A DNA stretch of 64,000 bases from Williamsia maris (GTDB lineage: Bacteria > Actinomycetota > Actinomycetes > Mycobacteriales > Mycobacteriaceae). Made by a program: the position numbers and the translations under genes. This document shows positions 1,485-51,171 of this stretch, one piece after another. The stretch is taken from NCBI RefSeq assembly GCF_024171815.1, contig NZ_JAMTCJ010000002.1, forward strand, positions 248,001 through 312,000, given 5' to 3'. The notes under the pieces were generated by a model. The model was not told the origin of the DNA. It saw nothing but the letters and a program-made list of their open reading frames with translations, and made no database searches. Numbering within the stretch: the first letter of the stretch is position 1; each line of letters opens with the position of its first letter.

Positions 1485-2417
1485 TCAGGCCTGGTCGGCG
1501 AACTCCAGTGACTCCAGTTCGAACCGGCGGACGCTGCCGGGGATGCGTGCGTCGCATGTCGAGAGCAGGGGCGCGGACATGACGACTCGGAGCGAGACAG
1601 TGCACTGCGGGCCCTCCGCCACGGCCAGAACCACCCGCACACGGTCACCTGACTCCTCGACACCGAGCGTGGTGAACGCCTCGATGCGATCGTCACCCGT
1701 GGCTTCCCGGAGGTAGTGCTCGGCGGCCTGGACGGCATGCGAGACGCAAGTCCGTCCACGCAGGAACCTCTCGTCGACCCTGCCGTCGGCGTACCGGGTC
1801 AACAGATCGACGGGGTCGGCGGTGTCGATTCGTCCGTAGCTGAGCCCCTCGGGGAGCACCACCATCGTCGCAGCGAACCGGTCGCCGCCGAGATGTGAAC
1901 ACTCCCAGGTGTTCTCGGGATCGTGGGCCGTGAGGGCGGCGGCGGCACCCCGACCACGCACCGCGCAGCACCGGTCGTGTTTGCCGTGGGCGCAGACCGC
2001 CGTGAGCGGGCCGTCGACCCGAACGCCGGCCGATCCGTCCAGGGGGATGTCGAGGTAGTCCTGTGGTCCGGCCACCTCGCCCTGGTAGAGCACCGACCCT
2101 TCCGGGCGGCTCTGGGCGATGAACCATCGCCACCGCGGTGTCGCCGACCGACGACCGGGTCTGCGGATCGCGACGATCCGCATCGACGCGGCCTCGGCAC
2201 GTCGCACGATGGACCGCCCGAGGTCACGGTCGAGGATGCGCGGCGACTGCATGAAGGCCGAATGCCCCCAGGGCCCTTCCATTTCCAGCAGCAGCCAGGC
2301 GAATCCGAGCGACGCCGTCGCGAACAGCGGTTCGTCGCGGGCCAGGGACTGATCGCTGCACGGCGGCATCGGCCGATCGGTGGACAGGTGCGGCGCACCA
2401 TCGACGGGCAGGGTCAT
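1485..2417 (-). CDS. Sucrase/ferredoxin-like (thioredoxin-like ferredoxin) protein
   Basis: 310-residue protein matching the sucrase/ferredoxin-like family (PF06999 type): an N-terminal CSDQSL segment (C20), the cysteine cluster CAHGKHDRCC (C142, C150, C151) and WECSHLGGDRFA (C173, H175). In the family this C-terminal part resembles a thioredoxin-like [2Fe-2S] ferredoxin, so an electron-transfer role is likely; the old sucrase name has little support. Its ATG overlaps the stop of the JmjC/cupin oxygenase (ATGA at 2414-2417), so the two are translationally coupled. Inference: it could supply electrons to, or otherwise assist, the oxygenase, although JmjC enzymes normally use 2-oxoglutarate and need no ferredoxin. 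Confidence 0.85.
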   Translation of the reverse strand: MTLPVDGAPHLSTDRPMPPCSDQSLARDEPLFATASLGFAWLLLEMEGPWGHSAFMQSPRILDRDLGRSIVRRAEAASMRIVAIRRPGRRSATPRWRWFIAQSRPEGSVLYQGEVAGPQDYLDIPLDGSAGVRVDGPLTAVCAHGKHDRCCAVRGRGAAAALTAHDPENTWECSHLGGDRFAATMVVLPEGLSYGRIDTADPVDLLTRYADGRVDERFLRGRTCVSHAVQAAEHYLREATGDDRIEAFTTLGVEESGDRVRVVLAVAEGPQCTVSLRVVMSAPLLSTCDARIPGSVRRFELESLEFADQA

Positions 2418-3625
2418 GCGGTGGTCGGGACCACGATGGCCTCGCGAAGGAGCCGCCGGATCACCACCGCTCCGTCCGCCGCGTCGAGTCCGGGCAGGGA
2501 GTCTGCGGTCGCGTCGCGTCCGTCGCGCAGATGGCGAATGGCAGGAGCACAGATCGCCGGGAACTCGACGACGCGATCCGGGAGTCGCAGTCGTACGCGG
2601 TCACTGTCCTCGGTCACCGCGGTGATCAGTCCGTGTCGCCAGCGGACGCGTGCGGTGTCCGCGCCGGCCATCGCCTCCAGGGTCGCAAGCGGGCGCACCG
2701 CGGCGGGCCGCGTGCGGCCGGCGAAGGTACGGGTCAGATCGTCGGCGACCGCCGAGCCCCATTCCTGCGCGCGGTCACGGATCTGGTCGGCGAAGGCGAG
2801 TAGGACCTTCGTCGATTCCGCCTCCAGGGCGTCGTGATCGCCGGGGTCGATGCCGATCGGCATTGACGCACGCAGGTCGGCGACCGCGGACGCGACACGA
2901 TCGACCGCGGCGCGGGCCACGTCGGCCCGGGTCAACGCGGGTACGCCGATCGTCAGGTGGATCGCCGTCTCATCGGCGGAACGTGCGGAGTGCAGCCACC
3001 CGCGGGGCAGGTAGAGCGCATCACCCCGGTGCAGGTCGGTGTCGATCGCGGGTTCCTCGGTGACGCGATCGGCGATCGCGCCCCGGAAGTCGGTCCATGG
3101 GTGCGACTCGAGCGGGTTGGTGAAGACCGGTTCGTGCACGGTCCAGTGCTTCCGGCCGGCGATCTGCAGCACGAACACGTCGTGAACATCGTGGTGCGAG
3201 TCGAATCCCCGACTGCCCGGAGGGGTGATGTAGGCGTTCGCCTGAACCGGGTGCCCGAGGTCGTCGACGAGTTCGCGGACGAAATCGATAATCGGCGGCC
3301 ACAGACGATGAAGGCCCTGCAGCACTATCGAGGCACCGTCGGCGAACTGCGCCAAGGCTTTCGCCGAGTCGACCTGGTCGCCGATCTCGGCGCCGACGCC
3401 GGCCGGACCGAGGAATCGGGTGCGGTCGACGAGGGATCCGTTCTTTGCCAGACGGATGAACGGCGCGCGTACCCCGCGCTCGGCGAGCAACTCGTCGACA
3501 GCATGCGTCGAGAGGAGATCGCCGAAGTCGCGGGGCAGCGACGTCGCTCTGCTGAGCAACGGCGATCGACCCCAGTGTTCGCGCTGGAACGTCCCCGGGT
3601 CGACCGAGATGCAGCGGCTCAGCAT
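2414..3625 (-). CDS. JmjC/cupin-4 family 2-oxoglutarate-dependent protein hydroxylase
   Basis: 403 residues resembling ribosomal-oxygenase-type (RoxA/YcfD, MINA/NO66) JmjC enzymes. The iron site is readable: H144-x-D146 followed by DVFVLQIAGRKHW, and the distal histidine H212 in GDALYLPRGWLHS. Residues 1-130 and the region after 230 fit the N-terminal and the winged-helix/dimer parts of the family. Known members hydroxylate Arg or His side chains of proteins. The gene starts 12 bases after the stop of the repeat peptide; its Shine-Dalgarno (GAGAAG) overlaps that stop, and its end overlaps the next gene, so all three are one unit. The natural inference is that the repeat peptide, with one His per repeat, is its substrate; a ribosomal protein remains the alternative. 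Confidence 0.88.
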   Translation of the reverse strand: MLSRCISVDPGTFQREHWGRSPLLSRATSLPRDFGDLLSTHAVDELLAERGVRAPFIRLAKNGSLVDRTRFLGPAGVGAEIGDQVDSAKALAQFADGASIVLQGLHRLWPPIIDFVRELVDDLGHPVQANAYITPPGSRGFDSHHDVHDVFVLQIAGRKHWTVHEPVFTNPLESHPWTDFRGAIADRVTEEPAIDTDLHRGDALYLPRGWLHSARSADETAIHLTIGVPALTRADVARAAVDRVASAVADLRASMPIGIDPGDHDALEAESTKVLLAFADQIRDRAQEWGSAVADDLTRTFAGRTRPAAVRPLATLEAMAGADTARVRWRHGLITAVTEDSDRVRLRLPDRVVEFPAICAPAIRHLRDGRDATADSLPGLDAADGAVVIRRLLREAIVVPTTA

Positions 3626-3637
3626 CGAATCAACTTC

Positions 3638-3961
3638 TCAGGCCGAGCCGTCCGCGCCACCGTCGTGTCCGCCGGGGTTGGAGCCGCCGTCAGCCGGGCC
3701 TTCGCCTGCGCCGGCCGAGCCGTCCGCTCCGCCGTCGTGTCCATCCGGGTTCGAGCCGCCGTCAGCGGGGCCCTCGCCGCCGGCCGAGCCGTCCGCTCCG
3801 CCGTCGTGTCCGTTGGGGTTCGAGCCGCCGTCGGCAGGCCCTTCGCCTGCGCCGGCCGAGCCGTCTGCGCCGCCGTCGTGTCCGCCGGGGTTCGACCCGC
3901 CGTCAGCCGGGCCTTCGCCGCCGCCGCTGGTGGTCGTGATGTCGTCATCGTCGAGAGCCAT
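3638..3961 (-). CDS. Four-repeat Gly/Asp-rich peptide, candidate substrate of the adjacent JmjC oxygenase
   Basis: 107 residues: a 14-residue acidic leader (MALDDDD then ITTTSGG), then four near-identical units of 24, 23, 24 and 22 residues. Each begins GEGPADGG and ends GHDGGADGSA; one variable site before GHDGG is G, N, D, G in order. Each unit has exactly one His; there is no Cys, Lys or Arg, and no signal peptide. AAAGG lies 7 bases before the ATG, so the frame is translated by design rather than being a repeat artefact. It heads an operon with a JmjC hydroxylase and a ferredoxin-like protein. I do not recognise a family. It could be a multi-core modified peptide, a metal-binding acidic protein, or a structural repeat protein. 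Confidence 0.75.
   Translation of the reverse strand: MALDDDDITTTSGGGEGPADGGSNPGGHDGGADGSAGAGEGPADGGSNPNGHDGGADGSAGGEGPADGGSNPDGHDGGADGSAGAGEGPADGGSNPGGHDGGADGSA
3642..3922. repeat. Four in-frame tandem repeats of 72/69/72/~68 bp
   Basis: Units start at 3642, 3714, 3783 and 3855, each with the plus-strand phrase GCCGAGCCGTC. The period is a multiple of three and substitutions are largely synonymous or confined to one codon, so selection acts on the encoded peptide repeat. Unit 2 (3714-3782) is one codon shorter than the other full-length copies. Confidence 0.9.
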
Positions 3962-4011: not shown

Positions 4012-4040
4012 ACCACCGCGGGGTGGGTCCCCGCGGTGGT
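4012..4040. promoter_or_regulatory. Strong hairpin in the leader of the repeat-peptide operon
   Basis: ACCACCGCGGGG (4012-4023) pairs perfectly with CCCCGCGGTGGT (4029-4040) over a 5-base loop. It lies 50 bases upstream of the minus-strand repeat-peptide start and 135 bases before the plus-strand oxidoreductase, i.e. between two divergent genes, where a normal terminator is not expected. No U-run follows on either strand. It may be an attenuator, an operator, or a hairpin stopping transcripts crossing between the two promoters. Confidence 0.6.
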
Positions 4041-50229: not shown

Positions 50230-51171
50230 TCAGCCGGCCTTGCGCTCGGCGGCCTTCTTCGCGGGGGCCTTCTTGGCGGTGGTCTTCTTCGCCGCCGCCT
50301 TCTTGGCCGGGGCCTTCTTCGCGGCCGCCTTCTTCGCGGGGGCCTTGGCGGCCGGCGCCTTCTTCTCCGAAGATTCCGACTCGTCGGAGCCACCGCGGTT
50401 CTTCACCGATGCCCGCAGCGCGGCGAGCAGGTCGGCGACCTCGGAGTCCTCGTCGTCGTCGGAATCGGACTTCTCCGGGGTCGGGAACGCCTCGGTGCCT
50501 TCGGCTTTCGCCTCGATCAGCTTCGAGAGCTCGAGCTGGTAGGTGTCCTCGTGTTCGGACGGGTCGAAGTCGCCGGCCATGCTGTCGATGAGCGACGCGG
50601 CCATCTCGAGTTCCTGCGGACGGATGGTCGGCTCCTCCTCGAGCGACGGGAAGTCGGCCTGCCGGACCTCGTCGGGCCAGAGCAGCGTCTGCAGGGTCAT
50701 CACGTTGCCGACGACCCGCAACGCGGCCAGCCGGGTGCGATTGCGCAGGGTGAACGTCACGACGGCCACGCGGTCGGTGTCGGCGAGGGCCTGACGAAGG
50801 AGCACGTAGGCCTTGGGCGACTTGGACGCCGGCTCGAGGTAGTACGGCTTGTCGTAGTAGATCGGGTCGATCTGCTCGCGCGGGACGAACCCGGTGATCG
50901 AGATCTCGGGGCTGCGTTGCACCGGCAGCTCGGCGAGGTCGGACTTGGTGAGGATGACCGTCTCGCCGCTGTCGCTCTCGTACGCGTTGGCGATGTCGGA
51001 GAACTGGATCTCGTCGTCGGTTCCCTCGCGGACCTTGCGGTACCGGATCCGGGTGCCGTCCTTGGAGTCGACCTGGTGCGAGCTGCGGTCGTGGCTCTCC
51101 GTCGCCGAATAGACCTTGACCGGTACGTTCACCAGGCCAAAGCTCAGATCGCCTTTCCAGATCGAGCGCAT
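50230..51171 (-). CDS. ku: Ku homodimer protein (non-homologous end joining)
   Basis: 313 residues: bacterial Ku core beginning MRSIWKGDLSFGLVNVPVKVY, with DPIYYDKPYYLEP and the family beta-barrel region up to ~ 250, then a Lys/Ala-rich basic C-terminal tail (KKAPAKKAAAKKA pattern) that binds DNA and recruits LigD in mycobacterial relatives. Two further Met codons (51177-51180) are possible starts. Ku binds double-strand ends. LigD is 8 kb away in this window. Confidence 0.95.
   Translation of the reverse strand: MRSIWKGDLSFGLVNVPVKVYSATESHDRSSHQVDSKDGTRIRYRKVREGTDDEIQFSDIANAYESDSGETVILTKSDLAELPVQRSPEISITGFVPREQIDPIYYDKPYYLEPASKSPKAYVLLRQALADTDRVAVVTFTLRNRTRLAALRVVGNVMTLQTLLWPDEVRQADFPSLEEEPTIRPQELEMAASLIDSMAGDFDPSEHEDTYQLELSKLIEAKAEGTEAFPTPEKSDSDDDEDSEVADLLAALRASVKNRGGSDESESSEKKAPAAKAPAKKAAAKKAPAKKAAAKKTTAKKAPAKKAAERKAG

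Follow-up and report, generated by a model that had tools for sequence, protein, structure and literature searches.

When the gene of a bacterial JmjC oxygenase directly follows one for a repetitive acidic peptide, is that peptide the enzyme's substrate, and which of its residues is modified? The question is raised by a three-gene operon in a 64,000-nt stretch of the Williamsia maris genome (NZ_JAMTCJ010000002.1, positions 248,001 to 312,000; hereafter the window), where, all on the minus strand, a repeat peptide gene is followed after a gap of 12 nt by a JmjC gene, which in turn overlaps by 4 nt (ATGA) the gene of a Suc_Fer-like protein (Table 1). These open reading frames (ORFs) and their spacing are as described in a first-pass annotation of the window, which had taken the histidine of each repeat to be hydroxylated. 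Our results suggest that peptide and JmjC enzyme, usually with the third gene, form an undescribed family of enzyme-modified peptides across one large phylum. We favor, at a probability of about one half (0.52), a compact operon for a multi-core peptide akin to ribosomally synthesized and post-translationally modified peptides (RiPPs), in which the enzyme would oxidise the repeated core aspartates, most simply by beta-(C-3)-hydroxylation, which we infer to be the simplest reaction to expect of a JmjC protein hydroxylase.

The window's peptide consists largely of four near-identical units of the form EGPADGGSNPxGHDGGADGS, beginning at residues 16, 40, 63 and 87, and it contains 17 Asp, 4 Glu and 4 His but no Lys, Arg, Cys, Phe, Tyr or Trp, giving a net charge of -21. 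A GAAAGG sequence lies 6 nt 5' of its ATG, and no other reading frame in the window carries at least three DGG[AST] motifs. Comparison with the peptide of a close relative (L004, JmjC proteins 92% identical) revealed 23 synonymous and 3 non-synonymous codon differences, with base differences of 1/2/24 at the three codon positions; these differences suggest that the gene is translated and under purifying selection.

Matches to the JmjC protein were found in 25/61 related genomes, the window's own included, while 36/61 had none at E<=1e-20. The search gave 25 named loci in Williamsia, Gordonia, Mycobacterium, Mycolicibacterium, Dietzia, Rhodococcus, Rhodococcoides, Antrihabitans and Microlunatus, and the JmjC protein of a Williamsia metagenome-assembled genome (MAG) is 94% identical to that of the window. 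Profile searches extended the family to 94/296 genomes sampled in the class and 42/296 sampled in the phylum (E<=1e-30); the former contributed 28 new loci and 40 taken by region (20 close, 20 lower-scoring), and the latter 20 (L126-L145). To tell loci apart we used the first 240 nt of JmjC; the distinct loci are mutually related, such that the counts below are not independent events; L001, a duplicate of the window locus, was excluded, and an initial set of 49 loci was also without L026, L027 and L028.

Throughout these initial 49 loci, an Asp/Gly/Ala- or Asp-rich ORF lies directly upstream of JmjC, broken by undetermined bases (Ns) within the peptide in L003 and L029, which are the same Williamsia MAG. 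By a fixed criterion, set after the peptides were known, an Asp-rich ORF directly precedes JmjC in 88/89 distinct loci scoring at least 370 bits (the single miss being L003, with its run of Ns) and in 20/23 at 205-370 bits, where the misses are a contig end (L138), a visible near miss (L141) and a locus with only a non-repeat Asp-bearing ORF (L103). The proportion is 4/16 below 205 bits, and 9/3910 at random control points in the same DNA. Conversely, the peptide matched in 17/61 relatives, in each case beside the enzyme, and in 0/36 genomes lacking the enzyme; this query reaches similar peptides only and missed 8/25 enzyme-bearing genomes, whose peptides differ. One extra weak match occurred in G010 (E=7.5e-4), and G003, of the window's own genus, has neither peptide nor enzyme. 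Repeat peptide and JmjC thus form a conserved pair, the opposite of what the first-pass annotation had named as its refutation, namely that almost every genome would have its JmjC gene without a repeat ORF. A short precursor-like gene that adjoins a modifying-enzyme gene and is conserved together with it is a feature of RiPP systems, and such a pair is present here. We also compared the neighbors of 45 loci (frames of at least 100 aa, flanks up to 4 kb), a comparison for which the peptide itself is too short and simple: JmjC recurred in 45/45 and Suc_Fer in 38/45, other large clusters were, by their position, overlapping frames of these two genes, and the remaining clusters occurred in at most 10 loci.

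In most members the predicted plan of the peptide is a leader followed by multiple cores, as the first reading had supposed by analogy with multi-core ribosomal peptides. The DDDITT motif of the window's leader has the counterparts DEDIVTT, DEDIETV, DDDMTTV and DSDMKTT in other families and classes, and a loose pattern, approximately D-[DES]-[DE]-[IMV]-x-T, likewise set once the peptides were known and with some peptide starts chosen by hand, occurs in 82/106 scored peptides (63/85 in a close group and 19/21 in a more distant one). The cores differ completely from one lineage to the next: genomes of the Mycobacteriaceae type have EGPADGGSNPxGHDGGADG units, L088 and L074 nearly pure (GGAD)n, other classes of the phylum DADGTDGDATDG-like arrays, and L133 six ADGTDQGVxGGTYGPRDA-type units after a DDDISSS leader. 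The number of units ranges from two (L035) to six (L133); L034, closely related to L035, has three, and the window's peptide has four. The conserved leader and variable core typical of RiPPs are hence found in most members only. A distant, annotated example occurs on the Streptomyces clavuligerus megaplasmid (L146, 3772-5167), where the hypothetical protein WP_009999493.1, in which an Asp-bearing stretch occurs twice, directly precedes a cupin/JmjC gene whose product is 33% identical to the window's enzyme over 55% of its length. In L095 and L096 the upstream acidic peptide is unrepeated and has a conserved end, GADLxEDQ...GPTxEPGA.

The enzyme itself matches Pfam JmjC_2 (PF08007, E=1.6e-24), and its HxD...H iron site is intact, as had been noted earlier: H144, D146 and H212 are invariant in a 23-row alignment, and in a larger one H144, D146 and K159 occur in 127/127 rows and H212 in 126/127 (one gap). 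The lysine of PF08007 enzymes binds 2-oxoglutarate, and both the iron triad and this lysine, which mark JmjC_2/cupin-4 protein hydroxylases, are present here. NO66, MINA53 and YcfD are the nearest solved relatives by profile and by fold: an AlphaFold2 model built with 25 natural homologues (mean predicted local distance difference test score, pLDDT, 83) was ranked by Foldseek with NO66, MINA53, and the Rhodothermus and E. coli YcfD proteins, followed by YxbC. Superposition over the whole chain was poor (root-mean-square deviation about 20 for the first match and 12-14 for YxbC), leaving the domain arrangement uncertain. In the last 75 residues, the model places three strands at 336-356 and helices at 357-367 and 382-394, with a middle helix of three residues only and a pLDDT of 72-97 over the block; this predicted fold may resemble the three strands and three helices of RiPP recognition elements (RREs), although the winged helix of a ribosomal oxygenase could look alike. 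We hypothesize that this domain binds the leader. The C-terminal fragment has no match in Pfam. In one locus, L101 of genome G328, JmjC is read in two overlapping frames, representing a frameshift or sequencing error, and the peptide and Suc_Fer genes are present.

Which residue would be oxidised? Histidine, with one hydroxyl per unit as NO66 and MINA53 place it in ribosomal proteins, was the choice of the first-pass annotation; NO66 comes first in both profile and fold searches, and each of the window's four units has a single His, as do most units in loci of the Mycobacteriaceae type. However, His-free peptides (14/85 scored in the close group, 17/21 in the more distant group) stand beside enzymes with the same iron site, and the place of His in the window's units is taken by Gln, Ser, Thr or Ala in relatives. 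Five loci with visible peptides fell under the scoring threshold and outside these counts (L003, cut by Ns, L040, L017, L071 and L133). At least two HDGG units occur in 55/109 peptides, and this label changes at least 13 times on the JmjC tree, 8 of the changes being forced by well-supported branches; the tree is a quick one with a split outgroup (L119 fell inside), and one change may stem from the Ns of L029, labelled with fewer His units though its array is incomplete. A deep 24-row clade, mostly from other classes, has at least two HDGG units in 0/22 labelled rows. The active site also differs from that of the histidyl enzymes. According to the available part of PMC9994133, the substrate His is hydrogen-bonded by Tyr328 and Ser421 in NO66 and by Tyr167 and Ser257 in MINA53. 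We located the equivalent places by profile alignment with NO66, in which the 93-residue spacing fits the aligned columns: the tyrosine is kept (Y132, 127/127 rows), whereas the serine is replaced by G227, with Gly in 110/111 rows at or above 205 bits (one gap) and in 13/16 below. Ser or Thr occupies this place in L027, L119 and L106, all without a visible Asp peptide, yet L110 and L116 have Gly and no visible Asp peptide either; the numbers are small, and their direction fits a changed target. Since His is often absent or turning over and the His-holding serine is Gly, we set His aside as the target, regard its hydroxylation as quite unlikely, and favor Asp as the better candidate.

Even if the Asp cores are oxidised by JmjC, the end product might be cross-links, rings, dehydro-residues or backbone cleavage rather than hydroxy-Asp, an outcome that we consider unlikely while giving it some weight. 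Macrocyclization dependent on 2-oxoglutarate has reportedly been described in RiPPs by Xia et al. in 2025, to judge by the title in citing papers. Such a title, on a 2-oxoglutarate dioxygenase, is cited in the available text of PMC12710340 and PMC12636437, and the near-regular Asp spacing of 3-4 residues would suit a repeated linkage. Yet the nearest characterised relatives, NO66, MINA53 and YcfD, are hydroxylases (PMC4543633, as far as its available text goes), and no cyclase-like partner is conserved in the 45-locus neighbor comparison. That these three modify ribosomal proteins (PMC4543633, same portion), and that the window's genome has no PF08007 match besides the operon enzyme, would agree with an ordinary ribosomal oxygenase whose neighboring peptide is an unmodified companion such as a regulator, inhibitor or metal buffer. 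This we find improbable, as the enzyme is missing from many relatives (36/61, with no PF08007 match in G003, G008 and G015), unlike a housekeeping ribosome modifier, and has lost the Ser421-type substrate contact. Finally, variation in unit number could reflect a low-complexity DNA repeat that slips without function, but the excess of synonymous codon changes, the recurrence of a non-repetitive leader motif in several classes and the constant position before the enzyme make this explanation very hard to sustain, and we strongly disfavor it.

The third protein matches PF06999 (E=2e-13; 51.3 bits against a cut-off of 34.9), in an alignment confined to positions 97-191 of the 191-position profile. 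Residues C142, C150, C151, H175 and C288 are conserved in 40/40 aligned homologues, all chosen from these operons, and would suit a metal or redox site; yeast Apd1, another Suc_Fer-like protein, binds a [2Fe-2S] cluster, and these conserved Cys and His residues would be compatible with one. A structural model (pLDDT 79) matched no solved structure in Foldseek (E<=0.001). The gene lies downstream of JmjC in 90/109 distinct loci with at least 600 nt available, and when 14 genomes were searched with PF06999, nine of the 11 without an adjoining Suc_Fer gene proved to have one elsewhere. The probable role of the protein is that of a redox or thiol partner to the oxygenase; from the gene order, we would guess at an electron donor or repair partner.

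Combined, these observations lead us to chart a model in which a leader-core peptide is translated, as its sequence supports, and the leader (DDDITT-type in most members) would be bound by JmjC, plausibly through the C-terminal winged-helix or RRE-like domain; leader recognition is proposed because the leader is conserved in most members and the enzyme has an extra domain. The JmjC domain would then use Fe(II), O2 and 2-oxoglutarate on the core aspartates, repeat by repeat, presumably assisted by the Suc_Fer-like protein. Hydroxy-Asp chelates metal, and because of this and its charge, a polyanionic product with many beta-hydroxy-Asp residues might, we speculate, bind metal inside or outside the cell. 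As no exporter or protease is conserved nearby, the product may act inside the cell or rely on general export and cleavage. Extended to the whole phylum, the scheme would describe poly-beta-hydroxyaspartate peptides as an acidic polymer, ribosomally encoded and able to bind metal, that a single JmjC enzyme guided by the leader would make with a Suc_Fer redox partner, and whose core drifts while Asp recurs every few residues; this generalisation is tentative, and we rate it as doubtful.

Several observations weigh against Asp modification within a RiPP-like operon. All the evidence for it comes from sequence; Asp occurs in every scored core and is abundant in them, but the ORFs had been selected for it, which accounts for part of this finding, and its conservation could reflect charge rather than a role as target. 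NO66, the closest solved relative, is a His hydroxylase, and His occurs in nearly every unit of the Mycobacteriaceae-type loci, where it may matter. The leader motif is absent from about one quarter of scored close-group peptides, among them L095, L096 and a clade including L023, L052, L082, L084, L085 and L087, in which units start almost at once. Ribosomal oxygenases likewise end in a C-terminal winged helix, and alignment of the JmjC C-terminus with actinobacterial PqqD domains by hhalign (19 of 20 places, one fragment being excluded) gave a probability of 4.4%, showing no sequence relation. No protease, transporter or immunity gene is conserved beside the operon in the 45 loci compared, and the genes for leader removal and export that are usual, though not obligatory, in RiPP systems are accordingly not seen in them. 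The Suc_Fer gene does not adjoin JmjC in 19/109 loci, and in two of the 11 such genomes searched, G012 and G050, PF06999 matches nothing.

How does the operon relate to known systems? No description of the trio, which the earlier reading had also thought undescribed, was recognised among the literature matches listed, a set that mostly leaves out subscription journals and is no proof of absence, and the peptide's repeat strings do not occur in the literature text searched. JmjC enzymes in RiPP contexts have already been published, and what appears new, among the matches listed, is the trio with its leader motif. In the biphenomycin RiPP pathways, represented by BipG (JmjC) and PbsQ (cupin-like), a JmjC/cupin 2-oxoglutarate enzyme likewise hydroxylates a residue, ornithine, of a ribosomal precursor, but, in the available text, as one step beside a multinuclear non-heme iron-dependent oxidative (MNIO) enzyme, an arginase-type enzyme, a B12-radical S-adenosylmethionine enzyme, a transporter and a protease (PMC12707348, PMC12257519). 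Here, in contrast, the conserved set was found to contain no oxygenase besides JmjC, and the cores consist of Asp repeats. The nitrilobacillin enzyme PesHI is of the MNIO type. It likewise makes beta-hydroxy-Asp in a RiPP precursor, but, so far as the accessible part of the report describes it, at a single Asp and with a C-terminal nitrile as further chemistry (PMC13060819). Fish and algal PF08007 JmjC proteins are fused to an RRE-like beta3-alpha3 fold, and their closest bacterial homologues (about 30% identity) occur in RiPP-like contexts (PMC12710340, in part); the available text there mentions neither a precursor nor a leader motif, a repeat core or a partner of the Suc_Fer type. NO66, MINA53 and YcfD, the nearest solved structures, share the iron-site residues but hydroxylate His or Arg of ribosomal proteins (available text of PMC4543633), whereas the enzyme here has a peptide gene of its own next to it, and Gly at the Ser421-type contact.

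Two- or three-gene operons in many actinobacterial families, each with a matched enzyme and putative substrate, mean that the substrate of a JmjC enzyme may be readable from the genome. This makes it possible to test what bacterial PF08007 enzymes do besides modifying ribosomes and what the Suc_Fer family does, and, if Asp is hydroxylated, the many oxidised acidic residues of this peptide class would suggest metal handling over antibiotic action.

Among more distant JmjC relatives, below 205 bits, seven loci (L104, L105, L109, L111, L114, L115 and L118) carry upstream a 35-aa peptide of the type MDPIEVEVEDLAEVTSRDITAGGDSDGTDSSSDFI, almost identical among them and rich in Asp and Ser at its end, and no Suc_Fer gene was detected in their retrieved flanks. 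L113 and L117 have another short Asp-bearing ORF in common, those of L120 and L121 are of different kinds, and no Asp-bearing ORF is visible upstream of JmjC in L106, L110, L116, L119 and L027. On a Pseudanabaena galeata plasmid (L148), some 2.8 kb separate a JmjC relative from the gene of a LanM lanthipeptide synthetase. NCBIfam gave no match for any of the window's three proteins (E<=1). In PHROGs, JmjC matches four families, all of unknown function (including phrog_8014, E=1.5e-21), with no family for the peptide or the Suc_Fer protein, and phage records had no JmjC match (tblastn, E<=1e-5).

Table 1. Features of the operon and its 5' flank, in window coordinates.
Feature	Positions	Strand	Basis
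Acidic repeat peptide, precursor-like, 107 aa	3638-3961	minus	ORF; purifying selection; composition
N-terminal leader MALDDDDITTTSGGG with DDD-I-T-T motif	3917-3961	minus	Motif in most relatives, not in one clade
Core unit 1, residues 16-39	3845-3916	minus	Repeat units of peptide
Core unit 2, residues 40-62	3776-3844	minus	Repeat units of peptide
Core unit 3, residues 63-86	3704-3775	minus	Repeat units of peptide
Core unit 4, residues 87-107	3641-3703	minus	Repeat units of peptide; tandem repeat array 3641-3926
JmjC 2-oxoglutarate/Fe(II) oxygenase, 403 aa; iron site H144, D146, H212; K159	2414-3625	minus	PF08007
JmjC C-terminal domain, residues 327-403, candidate leader-binding	2417-2647	minus	AlphaFold2 secondary structure
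Suc_Fer-like protein, 310 aa; C142, C150, C151, H175, C288	1485-2417	minus	PF06999
12-bp perfect hairpin 5' of peptide gene	4012-4040	minus	Inverted repeat ACCACCGCGGGG / CCCCGCGGTGGT

The stretch containing the hairpin 5' of the peptide gene has an RNA folding z of -3.09, and the hairpin is imperfect in close relatives. Elsewhere in the window, another tandem repeat array, with periods of 15-45 bases, occupies positions 50247-50369.

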